From Geothrix sp. PMB-07 (GTDB lineage: Bacteria; Acidobacteriota; Holophagae; Holophagales; Holophagaceae): a stretch of 64,000 nt of DNA. The notes under the pieces were generated by a model. The model saw only the letters and a list, made by a program, of their open reading frames with translations. It searched no databases and was not told where the DNA came from. The DNA lies in NCBI RefSeq assembly GCF_030758935.1, contig NZ_CP132333.1, positions 3,286,992 through 3,350,991 of the forward strand. The letters run 5' to 3'. Of the stretch, positions 10,641-32,924 are shown piece by piece (position 1 is the stretch's first letter; each line of letters begins with the position of its first letter). The position numbers and the translations under genes were made by a program.

Positions 10641-10911
10641 GATCTGGCCCCAATGTGTTTCTCAGGGCCGACTACAATCACCACCAGCCTCATTCGGCCA
10701 TAGGAGGTCAGCCCACCAGTCACACGGCTGAACACCCCCATTGGCAACGACAGGGAGCGAATGCCACGAACCCTCTTCAATGGGCGAGGAAGGCCGAATC
10801 TTCAGAACCGCCCCTTCGTTTATGCCATCCTTTGGAAGCACCCTGAATTGACCAACCCTCTTCCAAGGCCAGATCGTCCAAATCCGAACTGCATAAGAAA
10901 TCCGGGCCAGG
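10641..10911 (+). other. Mosaic of IS fragments
   Basis: Positions 10645-10671 match, reversed, sequence at about 21190-21217. From 10661 the translation reads DYNHHQPHSAIGGQP, and after a frame change PVTRLNTPIGND, the tail of an IS481-type transposase. At 10782-10845 the translation GRPNLQNRPFVYAILWKH resembles the N-terminal block of the IS427-type transposases at 11996 and 21548. These pieces are too short to work and mark repeated insertion and deletion here. Confidence 0.5.
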
Positions 10912-11241
10912 TCAAGGTATGGGGATTATCACTCGGAAAGCTGTTCCGAATCCAGGCTGACTGTCCACTTCAATATTCCCAGAATGTTGATCGACAAGTC
11001 CCTTGACAATACTCAAACCAAGGCCCCAGCCCTCAATCAAATCCCCGGCTTGAGCCTGAGTAAAGGCCTGAAAAATGGTGGCAATTTCTTCAGGTTTCAT
11101 ACCTCGCCCGGTGTCACGGGTTTCTAGGATCCATTTACCATCCCGTTCCCAGGAATGCACCTCAATGGAACCTTCCTTTGTGAATTTTAATGCATTTCCG
11201 ACCAAATTCAGAAGAATCTGCTGAAGGGCTAGGGTGTGTTT

Positions 11242-11736
11242 TCAAAGTCGGAGCCAGGTAAGGACACAGGCAATGGCGACCATGGCGCTGTAGTTGCGCA
11301 TGGTTTTGTCGTAACGGGTAGCGAGGCTTCGGTATTGTTTGAGCTTCGCGAACAGGTTCTCGACGGCGTGGCGGGCCTTGTAGAAATGCTTATCGAAGGC
11401 GGCTGGATCCTTCCTGCATGGATGAGGTGGAACAACTGCCTCTGCTCCAATAGACGCGATCTGATCCCGGCAGGACTTTCCGTCGTAGGCACGATCACCG
11501 AGAACAGCCCCGGCCTCCCGGCCCATTAATAGGCTTCCGAGTTGCTTGCTCTCGTGCGACTGGCCTGGTGTCAGCACGAAATCGACGGGGTTGCCGTGGG
11601 CATCCCCGATCAGGTGGACTTTGGTCGAGAAACCGCCGCGCGAGCGGCCAAGCCCTTGGATGTAGGTCCCCCTTTTGCACCAGCCGCATGCTGATGGGCG
11701 CGGATAACGGTTCCGTCGACCATGACCCATTCGCAA
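11242..11736 (-). CDS. IS427-type transposase, second ORF
   Basis: The frame overlaps the end of the first ORF. From about 11680 it gives the family sequence YIQGLGRSRGGFSTKVHLIGD, LGDRAYDGKSC (second catalytic Asp) and the signature YKARHAVENLFAKLKQYR, which holds the Y-2-R-3-E-6-K motif and the catalytic Glu. It ends VLTWLRL. The usual product is a fusion made by frameshifting at AAAAGGGGG (11676-11668 on the minus strand). This copy has no disabling change that I can see. Confidence 0.85.
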   Translation of the reverse strand: MRMGHGRRNRYPRPSACGWCKRGTYIQGLGRSRGGFSTKVHLIGDAHGNPVDFVLTPGQSHESKQLGSLLMGREAGAVLGDRAYDGKSCRDQIASIGAEAVVPPHPCRKDPAAFDKHFYKARHAVENLFAKLKQYRSLATRYDKTMRNYSAMVAIACVLTWLRL

Positions 11737-11996
11737 TCCGCTTCACCTCGAAGGGCTTCGAGGACCCGCTGCCAGACTCCGCTCCGATTCCACCGATTGA
11801 AGCGCGTGAAGACCGTGTTCCAAGGTCCGAAGGATTCAGGCAAATCTCTCCAGGGCGCTCCCGTTCTGTGCTTCCAGAGGATCGCTTCAACGATGGGGCG
11901 ATTGTCCAGGCGAGGGCGCCCCATTCCACCCTGCTCGCTCGGCAGCAGAGGCTCTAGCCTGGCCCACATTCGTTCAGTCAGAAAAGTTCTCGCCAC
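11610..11996 (-). CDS. IS427-type transposase, first ORF
   Basis: The N-terminal half of the transposase: RTFLTERMWARLEPLLP, the DUF4096 block GRPRLDNRPIVEAILWKH, TGAPWRDLPESFGPWNTVFTRFNRW, and the first catalytic Asp in WVMVDGTVIRAHQHAAG. The frame runs out of family sequence at the AAAAGGGGG slip site and continues only as a short tail. It is nearly identical to 21548-21934. Confidence 0.88.
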   Translation of the reverse strand: MARTFLTERMWARLEPLLPSEQGGMGRPRLDNRPIVEAILWKHRTGAPWRDLPESFGPWNTVFTRFNRWNRSGVWQRVLEALRGEADCEWVMVDGTVIRAHQHAAGAKGGPTSKGLAARAAVSRPKST

Positions 11997-13729
11997 GCTC
12001 TACCTCAACGTCATACCCATGAGGTACCGCAGTTAGGCAATTTGTACAACCCCTTACGTCCATTTGCCTTTCTTGACTTTGAAAACAGGCCCTAGTGGGT
12101 CACCCAATATGCGAACATCCCTAGACGAAGGTGTTTCTTGATAGTGAAAACGTATCCCAACTGCTTCTGCCCGAATTTTAAAACCATCAACTAATCCCTC
12201 GATAGCTTGTGAAGGCACTATAAGGCGTAACCTCGAGGCTGGTAATACATGCTGTAATCTCGAAGCATCAAGGAGTCGACCCGCCAACTGTTCCAAACGT
12301 TTCGCCTCCATTTTGATAATACCAAGCATACGATCATTAAATACAACAGTCTCACCATCTATGCTTTGTACAATTAGCGAAATTGAAGTAAGAGGTCCAC
12401 GTAGATCATGGACAATCCCAAGTGTATGTTGAATTCGTGCCTCAAGTGTTTTTCGGATTTGTGTGTGCGCGTCTTCTATTTCCCTGTTTTTTTGAAGCAA
12501 GCGTTCAGTACGACGGCCAACCTCAATCTCAAGAGAGTGGTTCCTCTTCTGAAGAATCGTAATTCTCCACCGCCATACAACAATCAAAGTGGCAAGAACT
12601 GATATCACTCCTAGTGCTTGTAATGCGAGCCGGTTGTATGACTTCTGTTGTAATCGTGACGCGAATGAATGTCCACTGATTCCATCCATGGTCAAACAGG
12701 CTAAAAAGCGGTACCCGCTCATTTGCAAATTCATTATATTAGGCATATTGCCGATAATCATCTCAGTTGACTGGCTGCCAATTCCCTTAACAATATATTG
12801 AACACGAGGGCTAAAAATACGCAGTGGCATGAGCATGCCTTGGAGGAAGTTTAAATTCTCGAGGTGAGCAAAAACATCTACTGCTGGCAGCGACAGAACC
12901 ACTGAATAAGGAGAGGGTGATGAAATCAGTTCAGTAAGGTCATTTAGGCGGTAGAGTCCGTTAGTAAACCCAATCCAAAGTCTCTGAATTCTGTTAGCGA
13001 ATTCATTATAATGATTCACGGATCGCCAAAAATGATCCACAACAGCCTCAAAGCCCGCTCTCTCCCGAGCCGTAATGCCCATTAGGAAATGAATATTCTT
13101 AATGATCAGCATACCGTGAATATACCGGAAAGTATCGTCCCTAAAGGCGTGCAAATTCCTCAAATTAAGGTTACGCAGCCATATGTTTTCAAATAAGTTA
13201 TAGACCGCCGGAGTATACGGAACCGAGAACACACTCATGTCCTCCAACCGGTGAATTACTATGTCAGCACTATTAAATAGTGGGGAATGAAATGCGCTGT
13301 AATTGTCATTAACATTCATCGTCAAAAATTCATTTACTTTAGTAGGGAACAGTTTTTCACTCCAAACCACTATTGCATATGCGCAATAATTCCAACAATT
13401 ATAATCATCGACAAGTTCAGGATATAATCGTGTTGAAACCAATGATATTCTCGGGGTGGCGGCGAAATCAATTCGCCGCCATCTAGGTTTAAAATTGAAA
13501 ATAATATCATTATTATAAATTTTAACACACCTAATCGGTCCATACTTGTATCGGCAAGGGCCCCATAAGATGCAACATAAAAATCCACTTATCAAAATTT
13601 TTACAATCCCTACAAACATGCCAAATTCTCCGACGTGGACTAAAGTCTGTGGAATCTCCCCCTATATCACTCCCAAATTCATCTTGTTATCAATTAGTGC
13701 CAATTTCTAAACACCTAATCCTATCGTTA

Positions 13730-16700
13730 CTATTTGATGGCAGAATCCAATGGAACTACAACTAATTCTGATGATAAACCGTCCCATAACGTGATTTCCA
13801 ATCGATCCGTATCAGCATATTGATTATTTAGCAGGAATTCCCAGTTATTACTAGTGATTTCTAATGCCAATATTCGCCGTCTTCCACCTTGACACAACTC
13901 TATTGATGCCGCCTTAATACAATTGGACCAACTCAAAACAAGTCGGTCATTTATAATTTTCCAACTCAAGGCCAATCGTCTATTATTAGCACCAACCGCA
14001 GAATCTCCCATGGTCGAATCCCGAATAGCAGATGGAGAGAACCTGACGCCACCATAACCACTAGACCAAACCCCATCCTTGGCCGTAAGTCGGTGATCTC
14101 CGCTCCAGATATCGATTGACTCGGGTAATGCTGTCTCCAAGAATTGCTCAAAAAAATGAATTTCAGAGGGTTGACAGTCTGGAATATTACTACCCTTAAT
14201 TATCCTTTTCACAACGGAACCATCTAAGAATTTCACAACCATAGTATATTTAGACTCAGCCACTTTTTTCTGCTTTGAGGTTGACTCAGAAGATAGAAAT
14301 TTATGAATATTAAGCACCCTATAGCTATCGTCATCAATGTTTATAATACCAGCGATCATCAATGTAGCTGCCACGCGCTCGCCGGAGTCGGGAATCGCAC
14401 TTAAGCTATGGCCCACACCTGCTGCAGGGTGAGTTTTCCACCCTTGTGGATAGGTTTCCTCTAAGTACTGTCGAGATTTATTCCAACTAAAATCCGACAA
14501 AAAGAGTCTTGGGCTGCAATATGACATATAATCATCTGCGAGCAATGTACTGGCTATCGGCACGACATTACCGTCAAAAGGGTTCCTAAAAATAGGTGCC
14601 GCCGGATCCAAAAAATCATAAAGCCTTCCATTATAGGCCGTGGGGTAATCACTCATGATACTGAGTGGCAGACTACAAGCAGATGCACCTCTGACATGGC
14701 CCAAATTAAAGTTATGGCTCAATTCGTGCATCATTACACCAGCGCAACTATAATCACCGCGAGGGCTCAGATTAAATATTCCACCATAGTCACCAGAAAT
14801 GTTGGCGCTACCAGGTGAATAGCCAATACCCCCTCCGTCTGGAGAATAATAGACACCGCTATATATAACCCCCTCTCCGGGGGCCTCAATCTCTTTCACC
14901 AGCGCCATGTCGTATAGCGCCGCTCCATTTGCAGAGAATGGAATTAATATTGTATTTTGACCATTAGCACTCCCGACCTGTAATGGTTCAGGTCTTACCG
15001 AAATACGGATATCATCAGCTACTACAGGGATTGTCATTCTAATCGATTCACGATATTGTTCAATTGTTGGCATAGATGGAACCAAGGTTTTTGACTGAGT
15101 CCTTAAATCTACCAACACGATATCAGGCGGATCGACCGGCAGACCTACAGTGGGTGTCACCTCCATTTGACTACTCTTACCAGTATTCAAAGAGTCGGGG
15201 TCAGTAACCACGACTACCCGAAGCCCTTGGTTCACCCATTCCTTAGGTATTATGGCTGAAAAAGCATTTCCATGTATGCTTCTTGTGTCATACGATAACG
15301 TAGCATTATTCGCAAGTTGCGGCAGAAGAGTTGGGCCTCCTGTCAACGGAAGGTCGCCCTTAAAAGTTAAGCCGTTAAATATCTTGGCTAATAGAACCTT
15401 CGGAGGAGTTACACCTGCTTGTGTTGAAACTAGATATGCGCGCACAACTGCGTCTATTCCAGGAACCAATCTTTGGTAAGGAGATCCTACTTGGGTGTGC
15501 ATTATTCTTTGTCCAACATCAACTCCGGCGATACGGGCATCTCCGCACCCATCGCGAGCCACATAACCGACAACAGTCCATCCCTGATAAGGCGTCAGGA
15601 CCTTTATTTGTCCTCCACAACCAATTCCTGGCGGGACCTGAAAGGAAAGCAGATTCGAATAGCCTCCGTCCGGGATTGATACCGAGTTCCCTGCAATCTG
15701 AAGGCCAGTTATCAACCCCAGATTCTTGCCGGGAACTTCTACATTTTGTCCGATGCCGCTACGATAAACTCGACTTGGGTCACTCGCGGTTGCCCTTTCT
15801 TTGACTATCAGACTGGGCATCGGTCCAGTGGCCACATCGTCAGGACCACGATCACCAAGGATCACGATAGTGCCAGTTGAAGCATTCTGAGGCACCAAAA
15901 AGGGTAAATTTTGCCCAATTTTTGACAAATCGATTGGATCAACCACAACCTCTACACCATTAGCAAACCTAATTTTAAGGTTAGTCGTAAAGGCCAAAAA
16001 ATTAGCCAGATACGGCCTTTCCCCCCATGCAATTGCCCCCGAATAAAGTCCACCAATTGAACCGTTATTGGGGTCTGTAAATATCATTTTGTGAACAACC
16101 TTCCATGATTGCGTCGTTTCCATTTGATGCCCATTTGAATGCACAAGAACAATCGGTTTATTCACATAGCCCCTTCCTCCCTGCCAATAATACGGCAAAG
16201 CAAAGGTTACTGATGTCTCAGTTCTTGAAGTAATGGTCAATGGCTTACCATTGTGGGATGCTGATACAAGGTCCCTGAAACCACTTCCGACCAAGGTTAT
16301 CACAGCTGGCTGATCCTGAGCATGCCAACTGTGATAACTCCATTCATTTGAAAAACTATCTACCCTGAATAAGGGAGTAATACTCAATACTTGATCAGAT
16401 AAAACCACGGTTTTACTTGAAGCAAACTCAATTTTTGATGAAATTGTAGATGGAGGTACTGTGAATGATATTTGGTCATCCCCCCCTCCTTTTTGAGTTA
16501 CAACATCAATACCTGCAATCATAATTTTGGTAACCGAGGTCAACCCTATCCCACGCACTGTGACAATATCGCCTTGCCTTGCCGAAAGAGGTGAAATGGA
16601 ATCGATCCGAAATGGTGCAACCCTGACAAATACCACCTCACTATCGATTGAACCAAATGTGTTTGATACCTTTACCCATATCAGGCCATCTGATTTTTTT

Positions 16701-17827
16701 ATTAGATCTTCACCTTGCAATGTCAATTGAGGTGATGTGGCACCAGGAATTGCGGTTGGTTCCACATCAAATGAGTCAGGCCTGTAATACCATTGATAGG
16801 AAAGCTCTGGAGCACCCACTGCTAAAATAGAAAGAGTTGCCCTCCCACCGTAAGGAGCCGTTACCGGTGCGGGTTGTGCAGTGATGCTCGGTGCCCCCAA
16901 TGCACTTGTAACAGTAAGTACCGCCGCGTTGCTCGTGACACTCCCTATGCTGTTGCTCACTGTCACCGTGAAACTGGCACCATTGTCAGCGCTCGTTGTC
17001 ACAGCCATGGTGTAGTTGGCCGAGGTCGCCCCGCTGATAATTGTTCCATTGCGCTTCCACTGGTAGCTCAGGGGCGCAGTGCCACTCGCCACCACGCTGA
17101 GGTTTCCAGGCTGACCTGACGTAACGATCTGATCTCGAGGTTGTGTAGTGATGCTCGGCGCCTCCGATGTACTTGTAACGGTAAGTACCGCCGCGTTGCT
17201 CGTGACACTCCCTATGCTGTTGCTCACTGTCACCGTGAAACTGGCACCATGGTCAGCGCTCGTTGTCACAGCCATGGTGTAGTTGGCCGAGGTCGCCCCG
17301 CTGATAATTGTTCCATTGCGCTTCCACTGGTAGCTCAGGGGCGCAGTGCCACTCGCCACCACGCTGAAGTTTCCAGGCTGACCTGACGTAACGATCTGAT
17401 CTCGAGGTTGTGTAGTGATGCTCGGTGCCTCCGATGCGCTTGTAACGGTAAGTCCCGCCGCGTTGCTCGTGACACTCCCTATGCTGTTGCTCACTGTCAC
17501 CGTGAAACTGGCACCATTGTCAGCGCTCGTTGTCACAGCCATGGCGTAGTTGGCCGAGGTCGCCCCGCTGATAATTGTTCCATTGCGCTTCCACTGGTAG
17601 CTCAGGGGCGCAGTGCCACTCGCCACCACGCTGAAATTTCCAGGCTGACCTAAGGTAACGATCTGATCCCGAGGTTGTGTAGTGATGATCGGTGCTACCG
17701 TGCTGGGCATTCCACTTTTGCTGGCAGTGCCCCCCCCACCACAATCAACCGACACAAATGCCGTTGACAGGATGGCCAGCACAAGGAATGCAATGGACCT
17801 CGAATTGAAACCGACTGTTTTATTCAT
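13730..17827 (-). CDS. Large secreted lipoprotein with Ig-like repeats and a metzincin zinc-protease domain
   Basis: This 1365-residue protein starts with a hydrophobic signal and a possible lipidation Cys (residue 29, in FVSVDCGGGG; Asp before Cys is unusual). Three near-identical Ig-like modules of 89 residues follow (about 46-312, each with PLSYQWKRNGTIISGATSANY), then a fourth diverged one and IPT/TIG-like segments (ISPLSARQGDIVTVRGIGL). Near residue 1035 it has HELSHNFNLGH, the metzincin zinc site, then SIMSDY, a likely Met-turn. It would be anchored or displayed outside the cell and cleave proteins. A minus-strand TATAAT lies at 17850-17845. It is divergent from the LytS/LytTR genes, which may control it. 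The gene is AT-rich relative to the window. Confidence 0.85.
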   Translation of the reverse strand: MNKTVGFNSRSIAFLVLAILSTAFVSVDCGGGGTASKSGMPSTVAPIITTQPRDQIVTLGQPGNFSVVASGTAPLSYQWKRNGTIISGATSANYAMAVTTSADNGASFTVTVSNSIGSVTSNAAGLTVTSASEAPSITTQPRDQIVTSGQPGNFSVVASGTAPLSYQWKRNGTIISGATSANYTMAVTTSADHGASFTVTVSNSIGSVTSNAAVLTVTSTSEAPSITTQPRDQIVTSGQPGNLSVVASGTAPLSYQWKRNGTIISGATSANYTMAVTTSADNGASFTVTVSNSIGSVTSNAAVLTVTSALGAPSITAQPAPVTAPYGGRATLSILAVGAPELSYQWYYRPDSFDVEPTAIPGATSPQLTLQGEDLIKKSDGLIWVKVSNTFGSIDSEVVFVRVAPFRIDSISPLSARQGDIVTVRGIGLTSVTKIMIAGIDVVTQKGGGDDQISFTVPPSTISSKIEFASSKTVVLSDQVLSITPLFRVDSFSNEWSYHSWHAQDQPAVITLVGSGFRDLVSASHNGKPLTITSRTETSVTFALPYYWQGGRGYVNKPIVLVHSNGHQMETTQSWKVVHKMIFTDPNNGSIGGLYSGAIAWGERPYLANFLAFTTNLKIRFANGVEVVVDPIDLSKIGQNLPFLVPQNASTGTIVILGDRGPDDVATGPMPSLIVKERATASDPSRVYRSGIGQNVEVPGKNLGLITGLQIAGNSVSIPDGGYSNLLSFQVPPGIGCGGQIKVLTPYQGWTVVGYVARDGCGDARIAGVDVGQRIMHTQVGSPYQRLVPGIDAVVRAYLVSTQAGVTPPKVLLAKIFNGLTFKGDLPLTGGPTLLPQLANNATLSYDTRSIHGNAFSAIIPKEWVNQGLRVVVVTDPDSLNTGKSSQMEVTPTVGLPVDPPDIVLVDLRTQSKTLVPSMPTIEQYRESIRMTIPVVADDIRISVRPEPLQVGSANGQNTILIPFSANGAALYDMALVKEIEAPGEGVIYSGVYYSPDGGGIGYSPGSANISGDYGGIFNLSPRGDYSCAGVMMHELSHNFNLGHVRGASACSLPLSIMSDYPTAYNGRLYDFLDPAAPIFRNPFDGNVVPIASTLLADDYMSYCSPRLFLSDFSWNKSRQYLEETYPQGWKTHPAAGVGHSLSAIPDSGERVAATLMIAGIINIDDDSYRVLNIHKFLSSESTSKQKKVAESKYTMVVKFLDGSVVKRIIKGSNIPDCQPSEIHFFEQFLETALPESIDIWSGDHRLTAKDGVWSSGYGGVRFSPSAIRDSTMGDSAVGANNRRLALSWKIINDRLVLSWSNCIKAASIELCQGGRRRILALEITSNNWEFLLNNQYADTDRLEITLWDGLSSELVVVPLDSAIK
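16880..17690 (-). repeat. Three tandem 267-bp repeats encoding Ig-like modules
   Basis: The same sequence recurs with an exact 267-bp period (for example the blocks beginning near 16874, 17141 and 17408). The copies differ by only a few bases, so the expansion is recent or kept uniform by recombination. The period is 89 codons, so gain or loss of a unit keeps the frame. Confidence 0.92.
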
Positions 17828-18314
17828 ACAATCTTAGATTCCTTATTATAGAGACCATAATCACGGTCATCACATTTCATTAGGTCTAAAACTGCCCAAC
17901 TCTGATCGTATTCAAGAAACCAAGAGGATCGACGAGAGGGTTGAAAGGAGGCGGCCGAAATGACATAATTCAAGGCCAAAGTGGTCATATTCGCACGGCA
18001 ACCGAACTATAGGATGCATCAAGGATTACCGGAAAGTTGCCTTAATCTCACAAATATTCCCCCAAATAACAACTTAAGTTGGCACATTTAAATCCTCATC
18101 AAAATTCACCGCAGAATTTAACCACTTGGCCGACCCAATTCGCCATTTCACCAGAAAAACAATCTAACATTGCCGACATTCAGGATAGTAACCTTTAGGC
18201 GTTATCTTAAGGTGCGCCAACAAGTCAAAACTGAAGAATCAATTCTGATAAACATCAATCAATTCATTGCAGCTTTCATCAATTTGCAATATAACTTAGT
18301 GAACAGGGATCAGT
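17828..18314. promoter_or_regulatory. AT-rich divergent promoter region between the protease and the sensor genes
   Basis: It contains no gene. For the plus-strand sensor operon there is TTGCAG (18267-18272), a 17-base spacer and TATAAC (18290-18295), with AGGGATC before the ATG at 18315. For the minus-strand protease gene there is TATAAT at 17850-17845 with a poor -35. I could not make out convincing LytTR-type direct repeats by eye. Confidence 0.5.
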
Positions 18315-19364
18315 ATGTTGCAACCTACTCAGCAAAACACAATTATTAAAAAAACTAAACCAACCGATGATTTGCAAGATTTCATAGTAAAAAGAGCAAT
18401 CTCCCTCAACCGATGGGGATTTTTGGGAATCATAACCATCATATACTGTGGATTTCATTATATCTTTTTAGAGTGCCTACCAGATATTGAATCTATAATA
18501 ATTGTTTTTTCATTGTTATTATTATCAATATTTGCCTCGACCATACCATGGCAGGGCCACAAATCGAGTAACGTATTCAAATCAATAAGGACCATTAGTG
18601 GAAAGATATTGTTATATGCCAGTATTTACACTATCCCTGTCACGATTGCTGAATACCTAGGCTCAAGGCTCTCAAACGGCGATCCAGACAGTATAAATAC
18701 AATGTTGTTTGGTAATTTTTTTTCATCGATTTTAGTATTTCTAACGATTGGTTATTGCATAGCATTTTTCGAGAATGAATCAAATAAAATGTCCTCCAGT
18801 ACTAACGAAACAAGGGCGTTCGAATGGGCAAATCATGGTAAAAATCTCCCTCCCGGCATGTTAATAGACGTCATCGAACGCCAACTTAATGAAAGAAACC
18901 ACAGACATACAAAAGACGCCCTAATTACGATTTCAAATCTTTATACATCATGGCTACTAAATTTCAATTCTCCTCTTATAACTGTTGACGAAGAATTTGA
19001 ATTCTTAAAAAAATATCTTACCATAGTCAGAAAATTTTTCAACAAAACAATCAATATTCAATGGGTCATTGAAGAGGGAGCTTTATGCCACCGAATTCCG
19101 CCACTTATTTTACATCCAATTATTGAGACACTCATAGACTCAGGCTATACTTCCCTTGAAATACATCTTAAAATAGAAGCCTATCATACTGGTGGCCTGC
19201 TTGAAATTTGGACACCTAAAAGCGGGAAAATAATTATCAGCCACCCAATTTGGGTTGATACAACAAAGCGACTTCAAGCAGTATTTGGGAAATCCGATTA
19301 TATCCTTTTAGGAGATACAATCAATGACAAGTTTATCATATCGATAGGAACTATTTCAAGATGA
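18315..19364 (+). CDS. LytS-like membrane protein with degenerate kinase core
   Basis: The 349-residue product has about four membrane segments (residues 33-165, for example WGFLGIITIIYCGFHYIFL and LFGNFFSSILVFLTIGYCIAFF) and a cytoplasmic part laid out like the His_kinase/HATPase of LytS proteins. It lacks the key residues. Where LytS has the phospho-acceptor block with Pro-His-Phe-Leu, this reads LPPGMLID (His replaced by Gly). Where the N box has Asn, this reads LHPIIETLIDSG. DEEFEFLKKYLTIVRKFF matches the conserved middle block. It overlaps the next gene, a kinase with intact motifs, by four bases. I infer a pseudokinase partner or sensor. Confidence 0.7.
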   Translation: MLQPTQQNTIIKKTKPTDDLQDFIVKRAISLNRWGFLGIITIIYCGFHYIFLECLPDIESIIIVFSLLLLSIFASTIPWQGHKSSNVFKSIRTISGKILLYASIYTIPVTIAEYLGSRLSNGDPDSINTMLFGNFFSSILVFLTIGYCIAFFENESNKMSSSTNETRAFEWANHGKNLPPGMLIDVIERQLNERNHRHTKDALITISNLYTSWLLNFNSPLITVDEEFEFLKKYLTIVRKFFNKTINIQWVIEEGALCHRIPPLILHPIIETLIDSGYTSLEIHLKIEAYHTGGLLEIWTPKSGKIIISHPIWVDTTKRLQAVFGKSDYILLGDTINDKFIISIGTISR

Positions 19365-20434
19365 CTACACCTGACATAACTACAATATTTATAGAAAGAA
19401 GCAGGCAGCCAATCGTTTTGGGGATTACAATTTTAATTACATTTGTAATTTTTTATTTTGAATTGAAAACAAGTTCATTTAATTATAGGTTTTTATTCAA
19501 ATTTATAATAAGGTTCTTATTATTGATATTTCACATACATGCGTTAGCTTTATTTTCCCCCCTCCCATGGCTTTGGAGCGGGGACAGTTCTTTACGCCCC
19601 AGTCTACTCAAAGGCTTCACACAAAGTTTAATTTTTTCATCAGCAATTTTTCTTATAAACCTACTTCGCAGTTATACCTCAATAAAAGAACTTACAATTA
19701 TCATCCAAACATACTCAAAATCCAATACACAAGCGAAGGCAACAGCTATTTCAATATGTATATCAATACTCATGATTTTAGTATATTGTGCGATCGGCTA
19801 TATTTTGGCACGTTTCGAACTATTAAGACTGCTAAAAAACAAAGCCCATGCTCAGGCCAGCGAAGTGGCATGGGCCCCACTAAATGCTCAGGTTACACCT
19901 CATATGTTACTAAACTGCCTTAATGGGATAATCGAATTAATGAATTCGAGCCCAATCGACGGTTATGAGGCTATGATAAAATTAGTTGAGTTCCATCGTC
20001 TTTTTGAAAAATTAAGCACTCGCAGACGCATACCGATTTCGCTAGAGTACGAGCTACTACTTAAATATATTGAAGTCGAAAAAATTCGTTACAAATCGAA
20101 TTTAAATATTGAAATAGCGATTGATCCAGCAACACGTGAGATTCAAATTCCACCTTTGATTATTCAACAACTACTGGAAAATGCAATCAAGCACGGAGAT
20201 TTCGATAGACATGGAATTAAACAGATAAAAGTATCCATTATATACAGAGAATCGCAAATAACGAGTGAAATTATCAATCTCTCCCTAGCCCCTTTTGGTT
20301 CGCATGGAAATGGAATCGGGCTCATGAACATTAAAGGTAGACTTCAAATAGCTTATGAGGGTCTTGCAAATTTTAAAATTGAACACCTAGACGGCTGGGT
20401 CTATGCTAAAATTTCGTTTCCGAGGACAATCTGA
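19361..20434 (+). CDS. LytS-family sensor histidine kinase
   Basis: The 357-residue product has about four membrane helices (residues 15-155) and a LytS-type kinase core: phospho-acceptor His in NAQVTPHMLLNCLNGI (about residue 180), the block ISLEYELLLKYIEVEKIRY, N box IPPLIIQQLLENAIKHGD, and glycine box GNGIGLMNIKGRL. It should autophosphorylate and pass phosphate to the LytTR regulator encoded directly after it (stop and start are adjacent, TGAATG). The signal is unknown. The gene is AT-rich like its neighbours. Confidence 0.88.
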   Translation: MTTPDITTIFIERSRQPIVLGITILITFVIFYFELKTSSFNYRFLFKFIIRFLLLIFHIHALALFSPLPWLWSGDSSLRPSLLKGFTQSLIFSSAIFLINLLRSYTSIKELTIIIQTYSKSNTQAKATAISICISILMILVYCAIGYILARFELLRLLKNKAHAQASEVAWAPLNAQVTPHMLLNCLNGIIELMNSSPIDGYEAMIKLVEFHRLFEKLSTRRRIPISLEYELLLKYIEVEKIRYKSNLNIEIAIDPATREIQIPPLIIQQLLENAIKHGDFDRHGIKQIKVSIIYRESQITSEIINLSLAPFGSHGNGIGLMNIKGRLQIAYEGLANFKIEHLDGWVYAKISFPRTI

Positions 20435-21172
20435 ATGTCACTCAAAGCTCTAATTGCCGACGATGAGCCCATTGCAAGACAACGACTAGTACGATTGCTA
20501 ATGGAGGCCGATTGCGAAGTAATCGGTGAAGTAAAAAGTGGCTATGAACTAATCACCTGGGCCCCAAAAATGTCAGAAATAGATGCATTATTTTTAGATG
20601 TTCAAATGCCCGGCTTAACTTCATTCGAGGCCCTTGCAGAGCTACCAAATTTCCCTCGCGTTGTTTTTATAACAGCATATACGCATTACACATTGCAGGC
20701 CTTTGAGCTCGCGGCCATCGATTACATTATTAAACCGGTCACAGCCGAGCGCCTCTCAAAAACCCTAGTCAGGCTATCTAAACTAAACCATAACAAACCA
20801 GAAACCAACATTCAAAGCAATGACACTAAAATTTCACCTCTTCGGGAGCACAAAATTGCTATCAAGGCTGGTAGTGGATTGCTGTTTGTCGATATAAAAC
20901 GAGTTTCATATTTTGAAGTAGATTCTGACACCGTTTATGCGATAACTACAGACAAATTCCGAACCACGTGGAGAACTCTCAAAGAGGTAGAACTTTCCCT
21001 TCCCGAGGAGAAGCTTATTCGAATTCATCGCCATTTATTGATAAGGCCCAATATGATTATTGGCTTCCGACTTGGAATCGGAGGGCGTGGAAAAATCAAG
21101 ATGGTGGGAGGTTCCGAGTTACTGGTAAGTCGAAAGTCATTACCGCTTATTAAATCCGCTTTAGGACTATAG
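20435..21172 (+). CDS. LytTR-family response regulator
   Basis: The 245-residue product has a receiver domain (acidic pair ADDEP at 8-12, phospho-acceptor Asp 55 in LFLDVQMPG, Thr in FITAYT, Lys in IIKPV) and a C-terminal LytTR DNA-binding domain (about 140-243: IAIKAGSGLLFVDIKRVSYFEVD, FRTTWRTLKEVE, IRIHRHLLIRPNMI). LytTR proteins bind spaced direct repeats upstream of exported-protein and adhesion genes. The likely targets here are the divergent Ig-repeat protease and its own operon; this is inferred from position only. Confidence 0.92.
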   Translation: MSLKALIADDEPIARQRLVRLLMEADCEVIGEVKSGYELITWAPKMSEIDALFLDVQMPGLTSFEALAELPNFPRVVFITAYTHYTLQAFELAAIDYIIKPVTAERLSKTLVRLSKLNHNKPETNIQSNDTKISPLREHKIAIKAGSGLLFVDIKRVSYFEVDSDTVYAITTDKFRTTWRTLKEVELSLPEEKLIRIHRHLLIRPNMIIGFRLGIGGRGKIKMVGGSELLVSRKSLPLIKSALGL

Positions 21173-24421: not shown

Positions 24422-24721
24422 TTAACGAGTGAATCGAAGAATCAGCTCCTTCAGTATTGTCCGAAGCTGAGCAGCTGATTGGGCCTCCAGATGTCGATCA
24501 ATGATTTCTGTGAGGGGAGGGCTCGGAGCCTTCGTTGCTCCTTTTGTCTCCAGCAGCTTCATACAACTGATGAGAACGTCCCCAGGCGGGACGACTTGTC
24601 CCCGCTCGTATTTCGAGATGAGGCTCTGGCCGCGCCCCAACTCCGCAGCAAGTTCCTGCTGCGTCCATCCATGTTTCTTTCTGGCTCTGCGGACGAGTGA
24701 GGCAATGGTCTGAGGGTTCAT
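24422..24721 (-). CDS. Small XRE-family repressor
   Basis: The 99-residue product has one Cro/C1-type helix-turn-helix (residues about 5-55: IASLVRRARKKHGWTQQELAAELGRGQSLISKYERGQVVPP) and a short helical tail (LTEIIDRHLEAQSAAQLRTILKELI), probably for dimerisation. It is divergent from the glycosylase operon, and a palindrome overlaps that operon's promoter. I infer it is the operon's repressor and also controls itself. Small XRE proteins in this position are common for defence and toxin-antitoxin loci. Confidence 0.85.
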   Translation of the reverse strand: MNPQTIASLVRRARKKHGWTQQELAAELGRGQSLISKYERGQVVPPGDVLISCMKLLETKGATKAPSPPLTEIIDRHLEAQSAAQLRTILKELILRFTR

Positions 24722-24819: not shown

Positions 24820-25560
24820 ATGCAGAGAATTTCCGCATCAGTGAATGGAGAGAGGCTGGAGAAATGGCTTCCCGACGCAGACGAAGAGGTGATGCCTGGG
24901 GTGCCTTGGGGCCAGAGCCACGTCCTCTTTACACCGGCCTTCTGGGCCGCTTGTGCTTGGCAGCAAAAATCTAGACCAAGCCATCCGCCCAACTATCGGA
25001 CTGGCGAGACCCTTTTGGAAGAGGTTGTCTTTTGTCTCCTCAGTGGCCACGGCGTCTCTGCCGAAATGGCCCGCGCGGCTTTTGATCACCTTAAGCAGCA
25101 CGGTGTGTTCCATATGACCCCAACGGAAGAGGAGGTCTCAGACCTCTTGAGGCAGCGCCATTCGTGCGGTGATCGAAAGATGCGATACCGGTTCCCCAAT
25201 AGGCGAGGGGCCTATATCGCTGAAGCCATTCGGGCCATTCATCAGAAGATGCCCCTTCCAATCGGCGGACATGAGCTTCGCGACTGGCTCATGACCCTGC
25301 CGGGAGTTGGCCCAAAGACCGCGAGTTTCATCGTGAGGAACTGGTGTGACTGCGATGACGTTGCGGTAATTGACATTCACATCCAACGAGCCGGTGTCGC
25401 AGCAGGAGTTTTTGAAAAGAATATGCTCCCAGAGCGGCACTATTTCGCGATGGAGCGAAGGTTTCTGGCGTTTGCAACCGCACTTGGCGAAAAGGCCTCC
25501 TTACTCGACCTGTTGATGTGGTCCTGCATGAGAAGTGCGGGGACGCTGGCATTTCTCTAA
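24820..25560 (+). CDS. HhH-GPD DNA glycosylase/AP lyase, OGG-like
   Basis: The 246-residue product carries a helix-hairpin-helix (LPGVGPKTASFIVRNW) with the catalytic Lys (K166) of bifunctional OGG-type enzymes and the catalytic Asp (D185 in VAVIDIHIQR). The N-terminal half (GETLLEEVVFCLLSGHGVSAEMARAAF) is the usual helical glycosylase fold. It lacks the iron-sulfur Cys cluster of EndoIII and MutY. Such an enzyme excises a damaged or modified base and nicks the strand. It is the first gene of a likely four-gene operon with a QueC-like enzyme and a PfkB-deoxyribosyltransferase fusion, so a role on modified purines, in host or phage DNA, is likely. OGG-like Cap11 proteins occur in type IV CBASS. 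Confidence 0.85.
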   Translation: MQRISASVNGERLEKWLPDADEEVMPGVPWGQSHVLFTPAFWAACAWQQKSRPSHPPNYRTGETLLEEVVFCLLSGHGVSAEMARAAFDHLKQHGVFHMTPTEEEVSDLLRQRHSCGDRKMRYRFPNRRGAYIAEAIRAIHQKMPLPIGGHELRDWLMTLPGVGPKTASFIVRNWCDCDDVAVIDIHIQRAGVAAGVFEKNMLPERHYFAMERRFLAFATALGEKASLLDLLMWSCMRSAGTLAFL

Positions 25561-25654
25561 GCACGACCGCTGCGTAAGAGGAATTTGATTAACCTATTTT
25601 TTGATTGACGATGCAATCTGGCGCGAGCACCCTCGTCCCATCTGGAGGTTCACG

Positions 25655-25999
25655 ATGGGCAAAGGGGAGTATTCCTCTCCGAGTTATTCATTAACTGGTG
25701 GCGGGGGAGTGCACTCTGGGGGCGGAGATAGTTGCGATTTGGAGTGCGTGGTCACTATCCAAAATCCAAACCTGTCCGTGCTTTCGGGCGTTAGCAAAGG
25801 CTCAATCCTTCAAGTAAAGCTGAAAACCCAGGACAAGCAGACGATTATATCGGTGGAATTCCTCGGCCGCCTGGCCGGTGCCATCGTTCCTGATCCACTT
25901 CCAGACTTCCTTCGCTGCCTTCAAAAGGGGGTGGCTTACAAAGCCATTGTATTGGTGAAAGATGGCGAGTTCGTCGAAGTGAAGATTCAGAGGGCATAA
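25655..25999 (+). CDS. Small protein with Met-Gly-Lys-Gly start and Gly-rich N-terminus, unknown function
   Basis: The ATG at 25655 follows GGAGG at six bases, so earlier in-frame starts are rejected. The 114-residue product begins MGKGEYSSPSYSLTGGGG, a flexible Gly/Ser-rich tail, then a compact, probably beta-rich domain (about 28-114: CDLECVVTIQNPNLSVLSGV, GSILQVKL, VEFLGRLAGAIVPDPLPDFLRCLQKGVAYKAIVLV). Removal of Met would expose an N-terminal Gly. It overlaps the next gene by one base. It has no recognisable catalytic motif. Its place beside a QueC-like enzyme makes it a candidate substrate or adaptor for that enzyme, which is speculation. Confidence 0.8.
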   Translation: MGKGEYSSPSYSLTGGGGVHSGGGDSCDLECVVTIQNPNLSVLSGVSKGSILQVKLKTQDKQTIISVEFLGRLAGAIVPDPLPDFLRCLQKGVAYKAIVLVKDGEFVEVKIQRA

Positions 26000-27198
26000 T
26001 GATTCATGTCGCTGGCGGATTGTATATTGAGACATGTATGGATCCGTCAACTCGGGGGGTATTTGGGTCTGGAGGGCGAGCTGCTGCGGCCCTCGTAAGC
26101 CAGGCGGGCCCGGTGATTTTGCACTCCTATATATCTACGCCTGCACTTCCACATGCTCAAGCTCTAGCGGGTTCTTTCGGATTTGAGTTGAGGCGGACAG
26201 ATTGTTCAATCGCTATTCAGTTCGACTATCTACATAGCCTGGCGACTCCAAGAGTAAACCCACCTCTCCACAAAATCACCTTGCACACTCCATTAATCGT
26301 CGATGGAGAAGTCATCCTGCGCTTCGGATTTCTTGAGGGATCCGCAATAGTTCAAGGGAAGCGGGTGGTCTATGATCCACAGTCACCTTTTAACGCAGAG
26401 CCGTTCTGGAACAATGGCTCTGTGGCTGAGAGCCTCGTCATCGTGGCGAATGAATCCGAGACCATACAACTCGGTCATGAACCTGATGCCCTCTCATCTG
26501 CAAGAAAAATCACGCGTGAGCACAGCAATACAGCTGTCATCGTCAAGATGGGAAGTCGAGGGTGCTACGTCGTTACGAAATCCGATGAGACTCTTATCCC
26601 TGCCTACCAGACGGGAAGAGTCTATGGCATTGGGTCTGGGGACATTTTTAGTACTGCGATCGCCTTATGTTGGGGACGTGATGAAAAGGATCTCGTTGAT
26701 GCTGCGACATTCGCATCGATGGCTGCCGCTCGTTACTGCCATACTCGATCCCTTTCTTTGATTCAGCACGCGGAACTACTTAAAACTGGACTGAGCCCCG
26801 TACTTCCCATCGATCCAGGTCATAAGGTTTATCTAGCTGGCCCCTTCTTCAACATTGCACAGCGCTGGCTTGTAGAAGAGACACGCGATCAGCTGATGAA
26901 ACAGGGACTGAATGTATTCTCTCCTCTTCATGATGTAGGAATTGGCCCTGGATTGGACATAGCAGAGAAGGATCTTCGTGGCCTGGAGGAATGTGATCGA
27001 GTTCTCGCCTTGTTAGACGGCGCAGATCTAGGAACCGTATTTGAGATTGGTTATGCACGGAAGCTGGGGATCCCCGTCATTGCCTTGGTTCAACAACTTA
27101 CTGATGAGCAACTCAAAATGGTTCTCGGGAGTGGCTGTGAAATTGCCCCCGATCTAGCCACGGCCATCTATCGGACAGCATGGAGTAAGAAGGGCTAA
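25999..27198 (+). CDS. PfkB-family kinase fused to a nucleoside 2-deoxyribosyltransferase
   Basis: Two domains in 399 residues. Residues 1 to about 260 are a ribokinase/PfkB-like kinase (opening MIHVAGGLYIETC, C-terminal motif GIGSGDIFSTAIALCWG near 212 with the catalytic Asp; the usual second motif residue Ala is Ser here). Residues about 273-395 are a nucleoside 2-deoxyribosyltransferase (KVYLAGPFFNIAQRWLVEETRDQL, FSPLHDVG, and DLGTVFEIGYARKLGIPVIAL with the likely nucleophile Glu near 348). The fusion could make or salvage an unusual nucleoside by exchanging its base and phosphorylating the sugar. TAATG coupling joins it to the upstream gene. The QueC-like gene starts one base after its stop. 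Confidence 0.85.
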   Translation: MIHVAGGLYIETCMDPSTRGVFGSGGRAAAALVSQAGPVILHSYISTPALPHAQALAGSFGFELRRTDCSIAIQFDYLHSLATPRVNPPLHKITLHTPLIVDGEVILRFGFLEGSAIVQGKRVVYDPQSPFNAEPFWNNGSVAESLVIVANESETIQLGHEPDALSSARKITREHSNTAVIVKMGSRGCYVVTKSDETLIPAYQTGRVYGIGSGDIFSTAIALCWGRDEKDLVDAATFASMAAARYCHTRSLSLIQHAELLKTGLSPVLPIDPGHKVYLAGPFFNIAQRWLVEETRDQLMKQGLNVFSPLHDVGIGPGLDIAEKDLRGLEECDRVLALLDGADLGTVFEIGYARKLGIPVIALVQQLTDEQLKMVLGSGCEIAPDLATAIYRTAWSKKG

Positions 27199-27199
27199 T

Positions 27200-27668
27200 T
27201 TGAACAGAGCGCTCTTACTATCGGGTGGCCATGATTCGATCGCGATTGCTTATCGGGATCGCCCGGAATGGGCTGTGACCATCGATTACGGTCAGATCCC
27301 GGCCGAGGCAGAAATCCATGCTTCGTCTGCTTTGTGCAAAGAGTTGAAGATTCCTCACGTAATTCTCAAGGTTGATTGCCAAGCTCTAGGAGTCGGTGAT
27401 CTGGCTGGGACGCCTCCCTTGTCGATCTCACCAATGGATGCGTGGTGGCCATTTCGAAATCAATTGCTCGTCACTCTTGCTGCGTCAAGAATGTTGAGAG
27501 AGGGTGTTCATGAAATCCTGATAGGCACTGTTCGAGAAGATCACTGCTTTGCTGATGGTCGCGCGGAATTTGTTCGGGCCATGAATCTGCTTCTTTCGAT
27601 GCAGGAAGGGGGCATAACACTCACTGCCCCCGGTGGCCTGTCCCCTCCAAATAGAGCCAAGCTAAATG
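27200..27668 (+). pseudogene. QueC-like ATP-dependent enzyme, truncated by an IS3 element
   Basis: TTG at 27200 is the likely start, one base after the previous stop. About 155 residues remain: the PP-loop LLSGGHDSIAIAY, IDYGQIPAEAEIHASSALCKEL, the QueC block WWPFRNQLLVTLAASRM, IGTVREDHCFADGRAEFVRAMNLLLSM, and APGGLSPPNRAK. QueC makes 7-cyano-7-deazaguanine; relatives serve in type IV CBASS (Cap9) and Qat systems (QatC). The C-terminal part, where QueC has its Cys zinc site, is gone because the leader of an IS3 element starts at about 27668. The frame then runs on in the wrong reading frame of the transposase to 27880. The operon may have had more genes beyond this point. Confidence 0.85.
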
Positions 27669-28904
27669 TTAAGGTCCACTCCAAAGGAGTCGGATCCAAT
27701 GAGGACAAGCAAGTTCACCGAGGAGCAGATCGTGGGGCTTCTCAGAGAGGCGGAGAAGGGGGAGCAGACGGTCGATGCCCTCTGCCGGGCCCGTGGGATC
27801 ACGGCGCAGACCTTCTATCGATGGCGAAAGAAGTATGGCGGAGTCGAGGTTTCCGATGTCCGGCACATGCGGCAGCTTGAGAAGGAGAACGCCCAGCTCA
27901 AGCGCCTTCTGGCAGAACGGGAGCTGGATATCGCAGCCCTGAAAACGGTTCTCCGAAAAAAATGAGTGGCGCGTCGCAGCGAAAGGAGGGGGCGGCATAC
28001 CTGACGGCCACCGGCTTCTCCCAGCGGCGCGCTGCCCGGGCCATGGGCCTGAGCCGTTCCTATGTCCGGTATTCACGCCGGGTGAAACTGGATGGGCTGG
28101 ACGAGCGGATCGTCCAGCTTGCCCATGCCAACCCCCGCTATGGCCACCGGCGCGTCTGGGCCCTCCTGAGGCGGCTCCAGCTCCGGGTGAACCTGAAACG
28201 GGTCCACCGGGTTTTCAAAGCCCATGGCCTCCAGGTCCGGCGGCGTCCCAAAAAGCACCTCCGGACCGGCCAGCATGTGCCGATGAAATCCGGGTATCCC
28301 AACCAGGTCTGGTCCTACGACTTCGTCCACGACAGCTGCCTGAACGGCGAGGTCGTGAAGTGCCTGACGCTCACCGACGAGTTTACGAAGGAGGCGTTGG
28401 TCATCGAAGTGGCCTCCTCCTTCAAGGCCGAGGAGGTCATGCAGGTCCTCAAACGCTTGTTCCAGACCCGGGGATGGCCCGCATTCCTGCGCAGTGACAA
28501 CGGCCCCGAGTTCATCGCCCATGACCTCCAGGTCTGGCTGATGGCCACCGGTGCCCAGACCTTCTACATCCCCCCGGGCTCGCCCTGGGCCAACGGCGTG
28601 GCCGAGAGCTTCAACAGCAAGTTCCGGGACGAATGCCTGAACATGGAGGCCTTCTCCAGCCTGGCTGAGGCCAAGGTCATCGTCGAAGCCTGGCGCCGTC
28701 GCTACAACGAGGAGCGCCCGCACAGCAGCCTGGGCTACCTCACCCCAACCGAGTTCCGCTGCACCATTGAACTGGCTCAGCTCGGTCTCCCTGCGACGGG
28801 GGCTCTGCCCCCGGACCCCCGGGATTTATCGCTTTGGGCACCCCCGGTGGAGGCCAACGCCCTGACAGAAAAGGCCAGGGCGTTTCCCCTGGCCAACACC
28901 GTCC
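27669..28904 (+). mobile_element. IS3-family element (second type), right end replaced
   Basis: It holds OrfA and OrfB of an IS3 element different from copies A and B. The left boundary is approximate (near AAGGTCCACTCCAAAG). The right end cannot be seen because the terminal repeat of another IS3 element starts at 28905 and supplies the stop codon of OrfB. It truncates the QueC-like gene. Confidence 0.75.
27699..27965 (+). CDS. IS3-family transposase OrfA (second type)
   Basis: The 88-residue product (MRTSKFTEEQIVGLLREAEKG) has the HTH_Tnp_1 fold and a zipper (LEKENAQLKRLLAERELDIAALKTVL). The start at 27699 follows GGAGTCGGATCC; an upstream in-frame start is less likely. A run of seven A at its end overlaps the OrfB start and is the expected frameshift site. 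Confidence 0.9.
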   Translation: MRTSKFTEEQIVGLLREAEKGEQTVDALCRARGITAQTFYRWRKKYGGVEVSDVRHMRQLEKENAQLKRLLAERELDIAALKTVLRKK

Positions 28905-28924
28905 TGACGTGCCCCCGAGATTAG
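27962..28924 (+). CDS. IS3-family transposase OrfB (second type), altered C-terminus
   Basis: The product has HTH_21 (RYGHRRVWALLRRLQLRVNLKRVHRV) and a complete DDE core: VWSYDFVHDSC, FLRSDNGPEFIAHDL, and GVAESFNSKFRDECLNMEAF with the catalytic Glu, then ERPHSSLGYLTPTEF. The last residues (TCPRD) and the stop come from the terminal repeat of the adjacent element at 28905. The catalytic core is intact, so activity cannot be excluded. Confidence 0.88.
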   Translation: MSGASQRKEGAAYLTATGFSQRRAARAMGLSRSYVRYSRRVKLDGLDERIVQLAHANPRYGHRRVWALLRRLQLRVNLKRVHRVFKAHGLQVRRRPKKHLRTGQHVPMKSGYPNQVWSYDFVHDSCLNGEVVKCLTLTDEFTKEALVIEVASSFKAEEVMQVLKRLFQTRGWPAFLRSDNGPEFIAHDLQVWLMATGAQTFYIPPGSPWANGVAESFNSKFRDECLNMEAFSSLAEAKVIVEAWRRRYNEERPHSSLGYLTPTEFRCTIELAQLGLPATGALPPDPRDLSLWAPPVEANALTEKARAFPLANTVLTCPRD

Positions 28925-31555: not shown

Positions 31556-32152
31556 TCAGTCCGCCCAATCCGGCAGGTCGAATTCCGTCTCATCCACAAA
31601 GAGAAAATCCCGTTGGACCTGTCTGAAGTTCGCCACAAAGCGACCATAGTCGTCGGACATGGCACTCATGCTGTTGGCATCGAGAGCAAGCCGGAACCGC
31701 TCAAGTAGCCGTTTCGGGTCCACGAGCCCCCGACTTGCCATCGCCTCGATGTCGGCCACATCGTTGGCCTTGAACCGCTTCAGCTTGCTCACGACCACAT
31801 CCACGATATCGAGAATTTCGACATAGAAGTATTTCAGCTTCGCATTCAGGTCGTCGGCTGGATGGTAGATGGCGGGTTTCGGCAGGAACGGAATGCCAGA
31901 GCGCACGATGTCCAAATAGACTCGGTGTCGAATTGCCAGCGGGGTCCCCTCGCCACCGAGCTTCTGCAATCGCCTCTGGACTTCCTCAGAAAGGGCGGCG
32001 ATCTCCAGCACATCACCGTCCTTCGTGGCTCGCGCATAGTCCGACTGAAGCATGAGTGCCACAGACCCGATGACCCTGAGAGTAATCCGGTCCCCCTCGG
32101 GGCCCTTCCATGCCCTATCCAGGTCCAGGAAAAGAGCTTCAACGGGCGACAT
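31556..32152 (-). CDS. Nucleotidyltransferase-like protein (DUF6036/AbiEii type), putative toxin or antitoxin
   Basis: The 198-residue product has the minimal-nucleotidyltransferase opening: Gly-Ser in RVIGSVALMLQSDYARATKDGDVLE, with the D.D-type metal pair in KDGD. Later blocks (DDLNAKLKYFYVEILDIVDVVVSKLKRFKANDVADIEAM) match DUF6036/AbiEii-like proteins, which are toxins in type IV-like abortive-infection pairs. It overlaps the upstream XRE gene by 14 bases, so the two are translationally coupled. Function as a toxin that modifies tRNA or protein is an inference from the family and pairing. Confidence 0.7.
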   Translation of the reverse strand: MSPVEALFLDLDRAWKGPEGDRITLRVIGSVALMLQSDYARATKDGDVLEIAALSEEVQRRLQKLGGEGTPLAIRHRVYLDIVRSGIPFLPKPAIYHPADDLNAKLKYFYVEILDIVDVVVSKLKRFKANDVADIEAMASRGLVDPKRLLERFRLALDANSMSAMSDDYGRFVANFRQVQRDFLFVDETEFDLPDWAD

Positions 32153-32924
32153 CGGCAGCCTTCAGGGCTTCAAGAAAATCGGTCGGTTGGAGATTGGAGA
32201 TGATGTGCCATCGCTTGGAGATCTCCGAGGAATGCTTTCTGATGTTGGCCTTGGTCTGCTCGCTGAGATTCCTAGATCCGATCAGGTCCTCGTAGTAGCT
32301 GTCGAGGGTACGATGACGATGCGACTCAACCCAGGACAGAAAATCCGTGAGTGAACGCTCCGCACTTCGAAGCGCCAGGGTCTCCTGTCGCGAAAGATCC
32401 CCCTTTAGCGACTCCTGCACCGCAGCGAGTGTATTTTCGGCCAGCCAGCCCAGACGGGCCTCTAGGCCGACATTTGAGAGGTGTACCCACAGCCGGGTCC
32501 ACCCCAACCACTTTGAAGATCGGACCACCACAGGGGCCAGAGCCGCCAGGTGCCGTGGCACATCCCCACTCACCAAGACCTCGCGGATCAACTGATCCAC
32601 CTTCTCCAAATCCTCGCTTGGGAACACCCCTTCATTCGGGGCGAGATGAGTCGCTCCCAGCCGGAGCAATGCGTTCTGAAGCTCGTCTACAACGTCGCCC
32701 TTCTTCTGCACGAAGGCAGAGGCCGGGACATTGAAGATCCTGAGGATCTCCAGGAACTGCTCCGCGGTGAACGAACCCTTCCCGTTCTCAATCTCGGAAT
32801 ATCGCCCCTGTGAGAGGCCTAAACGCTTCGCCAGCTCGCTCTGGGTAAGCCGCCGTTCCTTTCGGAGCTCAGCGACTTTATCCGATATGTATTTCCTGCT
32901 TTTACTTGTTTTATTGTTTTCCAT
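32139..32924 (-). CDS. XRE-family regulator with long C-terminal domain, partner of the nucleotidyltransferase
   Basis: The 261-residue product starts with a Cro/C1 helix-turn-helix (about residues 12-68: VAELRKERRLTQSELAKRLGLSQGRYSEIENGKGS) and continues with a mostly helical domain I do not recognise (LQNALLRLGATHLAP, SKWLGWTRLWVHLSNVGLEARLGWLAENTLAAVQ). It is encoded first in a two-gene unit, and a palindrome lies just upstream. Both fit an autoregulated toxin-antitoxin or abortive-infection module. Confidence 0.8.
   Translation of the reverse strand: MENNKTSKSRKYISDKVAELRKERRLTQSELAKRLGLSQGRYSEIENGKGSFTAEQFLEILRIFNVPASAFVQKKGDVVDELQNALLRLGATHLAPNEGVFPSEDLEKVDQLIREVLVSGDVPRHLAALAPVVVRSSKWLGWTRLWVHLSNVGLEARLGWLAENTLAAVQESLKGDLSRQETLALRSAERSLTDFLSWVESHRHRTLDSYYEDLIGSRNLSEQTKANIRKHSSEISKRWHIISNLQPTDFLEALKAADVAR

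Follow-up and report, generated by a model that had tools for sequence, protein, structure and literature searches.

A widespread family of small proteins, hitherto undescribed in the portions of the literature available, is encoded together with a PfkB kinase-nucleoside 2-deoxyribosyltransferase (PfkB-NDT) fusion, a QueC-like enzyme and, usually, an OGG-like glycosylase. We consider it reasonably likely, on sequence and structure evidence, that members of this family serve as acceptors of QueC-type conjugation at their N-termini. The reading is built from the anatomy of the small protein, the conservation of its start, its linkage to QueC, its fold, the integrity of catalytic motifs, and the mobile and defence context of the cassette.

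The window, by which we mean the whole 64,000-nucleotide stretch analysed from Geothrix sp. PMB-07, contains one copy of the cassette in the order HTH regulator (minus strand), OGG-like glycosylase, small protein, PfkB-NDT fusion, and a QueC-like gene cut by an IS3-type transposase.

24422-24721, minus strand: XRE-type HTH regulator, divergent; position matches that in the Roseivivax locus (L007)
24820-25560, plus strand: OGG-like HhH DNA glycosylase/lyase (PF22175, E 3e-18; LPGVGPKTASF...IDIHI)
25644-25648, plus strand: Shine-Dalgarno sequence GGAGG, 6 nt upstream of the ATG, read directly
25655-25999, plus strand: small protein, 114 aa, candidate acceptor, with a HIRAN-like domain after a disordered tail
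25655-25732, plus strand: disordered tail, residues 1-26, MGKGEYSSPSYSLTGGGGVHSGGGDS; pLDDT 50-60 in residues 1-20
25736-25996, plus strand: predicted HIRAN-like beta domain, residues 28-114 (AlphaFold2, Foldseek, VIA-align)
25999-27198, plus strand: PfkB kinase-nucleoside 2-deoxyribosyltransferase fusion (PF05014, E 1.5e-17; PF00294, E 2e-10)
27200-27661, plus strand: QueC-like gene, PF06508 cluster 4, truncated (PF06508, E 9e-15)
27666-28924, plus strand: IS3-type transposase ORFs (27666-27965 and 27962-28924; IS3 family transposase similarity) interrupting QueC

The first-pass annotation of this DNA had fixed the start of the small gene by its strong GGAGG, and that assignment holds: the ORF, whose product begins MGKGEYSSPSYSLTGGGGVHSGGGDSCDL, is a real gene, and its stop overlaps the start of the PfkB-NDT gene at 25999. 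The same annotation placed the gene beside a QueC-like gene. Such a gene does lie downstream, but it is not adjacent, the fusion gene standing between the two. The envisaged architecture of a flexible tail followed by a compact domain was borne out by an AlphaFold2 model (49-sequence alignment; mean pLDDT 85.7), in which residues 1 to about 26 were of low confidence and residues 28-114 formed a compact beta domain with pLDDT mostly above 90. When compared with known structures by VIA-align, this domain gave Z-scores of 11.1 to 3k2y, 8.5 to the HIRAN domain of HLTF, and 7.0 to HamB of the Hachiman system; a score near 8 is middling on its own by the aligner's own warning, and most of the top ranks were HIRAN chains. 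Foldseek returned a probability of 1.0 for 3k2y and for most HLTF chains. A search of 18 members of the small-protein family with the Pfam HIRAN profile gave no match with an E-value of 1 or below, so the likeness is one of fold, and the domain is, as modelled, HIRAN-like. No family in PADLOC or Pfam scored above its cut-off against the small protein, and RsgI_N and PUA_4 were rejected as identities since their matches were weak and mutually inconsistent. Two cysteines, C27 (25733-25735), just before the HIRAN-like domain, and C88 (25916-25918), are invariant across the family alignments.

The window copy of the cassette is damaged. The active-site Lys and Asp motifs of the OGG-like glycosylase are present, as are both catalytic motifs of the PfkB-NDT fusion (GSGDIF and GTVFEIGYA). 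The QueC-like protein is cut after about residue 144-154 by the IS3 insertion; it retains the ATP loop, YGQ, PxRNQ and the guanine-edge Asp, and has lost the zinc-binding C-terminus, no remnant of which was found within the 27-36 kb interval of the window. Because the insertion cut QueC short of its zinc site, the sequence points to a decayed remnant that is probably inactive. A third QueC-like match in the host genome reads as argininosuccinate synthase and was set aside. Homologues of the small protein were absent from the other 99 genomes of genus and phylum relatives, 46 of them of the same genus, and the window locus therefore looks horizontally acquired. As had been stated at the outset, the operon lacks a CD-NTase: its genes matched HTH, OGG, PfkB-NDT and QueC families instead. 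Nor did the window operon include a TGT, a KAP ATPase (QatA), a TatD nuclease (QatD) or an extended QatC. Downstream of the IS elements, at 31556-32924, lie a DUF6036 nucleotidyltransferase gene and an HTH gene in a toxin-antitoxin-like arrangement.

Intact relatives were recovered by tblastn with the PfkB-NDT fusion, which detected homologues of full length on proteobacterial, cyanobacterial and haloarchaeal plasmids, and by a genome scan that gave 281 confirmed relatives, of which 80 were kept. Across about 98 related loci, from Proteobacteria to haloarchaea, the small protein was present in 97, QueC in 97, and the OGG-like gene in 90; in 97 of the 98, QueC lay directly downstream of the kinase fusion. 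That the domain family recurs in this position in 97 of 98 loci indicates that the small protein is not a chance ORF. Linkage was also apparent from the opposite direction. All seven weak matches to the small protein fell at PfkB-NDT homologue loci, and of 23 matches in 20 genomes, 22 lay at the operon already recovered or at a second copy inside it, the latter occurring in two genomes (G106 and G107); the remaining match (G102) lay 1.2 kb from a second cassette-type QueC. A close-relative search of viral contigs with the small protein alone gave no match, and the phage collection contained no full-length kinase-NDT. The NDT catalytic motif was found in 93 of 99 main-type kinase fusions.

Several loci depart from the common arrangement. 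Two small proteins accompany two kinase-fusion genes in eight Alphaproteobacterial loci (L057, L058, L060, L067, L074, L080, L084 and L095), where the NDT motif is absent from the second kinases and the PfkB motif from nearly all of them. In three haloarchaeal loci (L015, L017 and L022) the small protein starts MGGG or MCGGG and carries two tandem copies of the domain, and that of L017 has a very long acidic tail. A SagB-like dehydrogenase gene directly follows QueC in 67 loci (including L018, 6292-6966, and L020, 6292-6972), with a match to TIGR03605 at E 1e-11, below the cut-off. Multiubiquitin/ThiF/DUF6527 conjugation genes adjoin the cassette in a Rhizobium locus (L009, 7175-9472) and a Synechocystis locus (L014, 971-3779).

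The start of the small protein is conserved while the length of the linker varies, single-domain tails being mostly about 15-45 residues long. This is the pattern that the first-pass annotation had proposed to look for in an alignment, although the invariant element is not the MGKG of the window copy. The family consensus reads M-[S/G/A]-G-[S/G]; among 41 cluster representatives (clustering at 50% identity), only the window copy has Lys at position 3. In most of the 18 plasmid loci and of the genome loci, the small protein starts with MSGSG, MSGGG or a close variant, and the haloarchaeal proteins start with MGGGG, MGGGS or MCGGG. Of the 41 clusters, 38 have Gly at position 3; at position 2, 30 have Ser, 6 Gly, 4 Ala and 1 Thr. 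Entropies are 0.44 bits at position 3, 1.19 bits at position 2, and about 3 bits by positions 8-12. Nominal binomial P values were 4e-23 for Gly at position 3 and 4e-20 for Ser at position 2, the clusters not being independent. Since starts in the 41-cluster set were chosen by motif in most rows, the cleaner figure is a motif-blind count, in which an ATG counted as a start if its Shine-Dalgarno match was at least 4 nt long: M[SGATC]G was present in 57 of 60 such starts, compared with 17 of 453 background ORFs (3.8%), 1 of 52 kinase genes and 0 of 52 OGG genes of the cassette. All of the second residues seen in the family are permitted by the rule for Met removal. The terminal residue that would be exposed is usually Ser, and the earlier expectation of an N-terminal Gly thus fails as a family rule.

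The QueC-like enzymes of the relatives, about 197 aa in length, have the ATP loop, the RN motif, the guanine-edge Asp and the zinc-binding Cys residues. They match exactly the C-terminal signature of PF06508 cluster 4, CH(x)5CxxCxGCxK (C169, H170, C176, C179, G181, C182 and K184), and their invariant Y29, G30, Q31 and E37 correspond to YGQ(x)5E, printed in PMC13329287 as YGQ(x)6E. A model of a full-length relative was most similar to QueC (2pg3, TM 0.67) and to the Cap9-CdnD complex (9nto, TM 0.69). In Cap9 the residue pair that binds the base is Y115 and D117 (PMC13279940). A profile alignment places a His and an invariant Asp at these positions in the cassette QueC, and among the relatives there is little or no variation at the Asp matching D117 or at the zinc ligands. 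His thus takes the place of the base-stacking Tyr of Cap9, and Gly that of the Cys of YxDC, which suggests that the substrate of the cassette enzyme may differ from that of Cap9.

A set of sister operons on Rhizobiaceae plasmids bears on the relation between QueC and its partner. In these four operons (L023, 4501-8895; L024; L025; L026) the genes encode PfkB, TIR-TGT, OGG, QueC and a TIR protein; the last is ThsB-like, follows QueC directly, and starts MGGGSSGSWSRLG or MGGGGGG, both of the MGGG type; a TIR protein of this type is present in a Rhizobium etli cassette. None of the four PfkB proteins has the NDT catalytic motif. An intact TIR-TGT gene is annotated in three of the operons and not in L024, the L023 copy having been tested against Pfam, and TGT was found only in the sister operons. 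A wide search of 297 genomes of the order of G107 gave one further operon of this kind. Hence, the partner of QueC is either the small protein or the TIR protein, with the same type of N-terminal motif in both cases, and TGT is present where NDT is missing. We infer from this exchange that NDT and TGT occupy the same slot, acting on a base-protein conjugate. By their gene content, the four operons resemble a CBASS-like set in which the TIR protein would replace the CD-NTase. A literature search on HIRAN with QueC, and on QueC with TIR, glycosylases and conflict systems, returned nothing relevant.

Cassettes are located on plasmids and integrative elements. The cassette occurs in 10 of 5426 E. 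coli genomes, in a form almost identical to the one on a Citrobacter plasmid. E. coli KMi029 has it between ssb and yjcB, in the company of integrases, a dGTPase and Gabija (GajA, E 1.5e-256; GajB, E 9e-151); the cassette of this strain is intact, occupies about 4345591-4349767 of NZ_CP147109.1, and comprises genes for the small protein, PfkB-NDT, QueC, a SagB-like protein, OGG and a DNA adenine methylase. The ssb-yjcB integrative element with cassette, Gabija and dGTPase spans 8960-21069 of locus L149, and the same site in L148 holds different cargo. PADLOC was applied to the near flanks and to 20 matched control stretches, a comparison that is qualitative only: the top 25 families of each set included CBASS cyclase with capP, type I REase, IetA, PbeA and PD-Lambda-5 in the flanks, and mainly reverse transcriptase, RtcR and Mads-type families, along with DrmC and a Cas1 model, in the controls. 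The setting on plasmids and integrative elements with Gabija and dGTPase favours defence over salvage, and the cassette is probably an anti-phage system.

Most cassette hosts have QueD. Both QueD and canonical QueC were absent in 4 of 30 hosts checked for both families (Pseudoruegeria, G106; Pleomorphomonas, G107; Mesorhizobium, G367; Aggregatibacter, G427), a count to which draft assemblies with missing genes could contribute; G106 and G107 also gave no match to the one QueE model tried. These four hosts suggest that the base may not be host-made CDG. If their absences are right, the base may be salvaged, phage-supplied or different from CDG.

The first-pass annotation referred to work on type IV CBASS in which a base is attached to a protein N-terminus, and this is indeed on record: Cap9 attaches a deazaguanine to the N-terminus of the CD-NTase (PMC11996544). 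In the qat system the QatB tail (MGTS) sits in the active site of QatC, the chemistry of which has not yet been reconstituted (PMC13279940). The acceptor proposal draws support from anatomy, as the small protein shares the pattern of these known or proposed QueC acceptors (CD-NTase, MGGS; QatB, MGTS). It also fits the conservation of the family start, the linkage to QueC, and the exchange with a TIR protein of the MGGG type. Counting against it are the replacement of Tyr by His in the base site and of the YxDC Cys by Gly, the four hosts without QueD and canonical QueC, the usual Ser at the terminus in place of Gly, and the Lys at position 3 of the window copy. What does not carry over is the window pair itself, which is not expected to work because its QueC is truncated. 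By the general rule, Met removal would expose Ser or Gly at the tip of the flexible tail. By analogy with Cap9, the tail would enter the active site of the QueC-like enzyme, where a guanine-like base would have its carboxylate activated by ATP and be taken up by the N-terminal amine as an amide. NDT is a base-exchange enzyme, and the attached base may next receive a sugar and a phosphate from the NDT domain and the PfkB kinase, the fusion filling the slot of the TGT enzyme in CBASS and the sister TIR operons. The HIRAN-like domain may act as a sensor or as a DNA-docking part, and the OGG-like enzyme might act on DNA or reverse the tag; binding to 3-prime DNA ends is a characteristic of HIRAN domains. 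Taken to its full extent, the proposal would define another class of immunity based on protein conjugation by QueC: the acceptor would usually begin with Ser, the base would be other than host-made CDG, the NDT-kinase would build sugar and phosphate on the protein-bound base, and a HIRAN-like, DNA-end-binding protein would carry a covalent nucleotide. In hosts lacking the pathway, phage or the environment could even supply the base. We put this complete version forward tentatively and think it rather unlikely in all its parts.

Other explanations account for some of the same observations. PMC13329287, in the part available, suggests a role in purine salvage for cluster 4 and reports a PfkB-NDT neighbour in its operons; that part contains no mention, for cluster 4, of the small protein, the OGG-like gene or a protein acceptor. 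In a scheme of purine or deazapurine salvage by the QueC-like enzyme, NDT and kinase, the small protein would be an accessory subunit. PfkB and NDT do act on nucleosides, their motifs are intact, and the described neighbourhood agrees; however, the small protein is found as regularly as QueC, conservation is far higher at its first residues than along the remainder of the tail, which a metabolic subunit would not need, and the cassettes occupy mobile and defence-island settings. We therefore hold salvage to be unlikely. The tail could instead be a docking or inhibitory peptide that plugs the QueC site non-covalently and is freed on infection, with the HIRAN-like domain sensing DNA ends. Such a peptide would leave the same sequence pattern, and the QatB tail lies in the QatC site although no QatC chemistry has been reconstituted (PMC13279940), but the same geometry yields a covalent product in CBASS (PMC11996544), and we give this explanation a low probability similar to that of salvage.

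The chemistry might also be RiPP-like, with cyclisation and oxidation of the Ser/Gly-rich tip and the SagB-like dehydrogenase serving as the oxidase. The frequency of Ser at positions 2 and 4, and the gene that follows QueC in 67 loci with its TIGR03605 match below cut-off, would fit, but Ser is not invariant (Gly, Ala and Thr occur), the SagB-like gene is missing from many loci, and QueC is not known to act as a cyclodehydratase; this makes the idea very unlikely. Finally, the conserved start could follow secondarily from the low complexity of a Gly/Ser tail or from the needs of translation initiation. Tails are rich in these residues, with Gly at 20% and Ser at 11%, yet these levels are far from the 38 of 41 clusters with Gly at position 3 and 30 of 41 with Ser at position 2, and the synonymous codons at position 3 vary, all four Gly codons being in use. 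A by-product of this kind is hardly credible. Conjugation to the small protein remains the reading that we prefer. In the literature found, type IV CBASS is the only system in which conjugation of a nucleobase to a protein N-terminus has been demonstrated, and it has been proposed for Qat. If the preferred reading is true, this chemistry would be an immune strategy of general use, with exchangeable acceptors (CD-NTase, QatB, TIR and HIRAN-like proteins) and a range extending to haloarchaea and E. coli; QueC cluster 4, so far unassigned, would become directly testable in function, as an intact cassette is present in E. coli.

Type IV CBASS carries an OGG-like gene, and the cassette resembles that system in combining a QueC-like enzyme, an OGG-like gene and a partner with an N-terminal motif of small residues and Gly, MGGS in the CD-NTase. 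It differs in that the window operon has an NDT-kinase and neither CD-NTase nor TGT (Cap10), in the HIRAN-like candidate acceptor, and in the replacement of Tyr by His at the base site. With qatABCD the cassette shares a small-domain partner that has a long disordered tail and a conserved N-terminal motif and is encoded beside a QueC-family enzyme. QatC, in contrast, is about 400 aa with extensions and a Thr/Thr base site, whereas the cassette QueC is 197 aa and keeps the Asp; QatB is helical, whereas the small-protein domain is beta, and the cassette is without KAP ATPase and TatD nuclease. PF06508 cluster 4 has in common with the cassette the PfkB-NDT operon neighbour and the CH(x)5CxxCxGCxK signature, the latter in the relatives and not in the window copy. 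The domain of the small protein shares its predicted fold with HIRAN domains (HLTF, Rad5 and the C-terminal part of Hachiman HamB) and differs from them in having no Pfam HIRAN match, in its two invariant Cys residues, and in being free-standing with an N-terminal tail.
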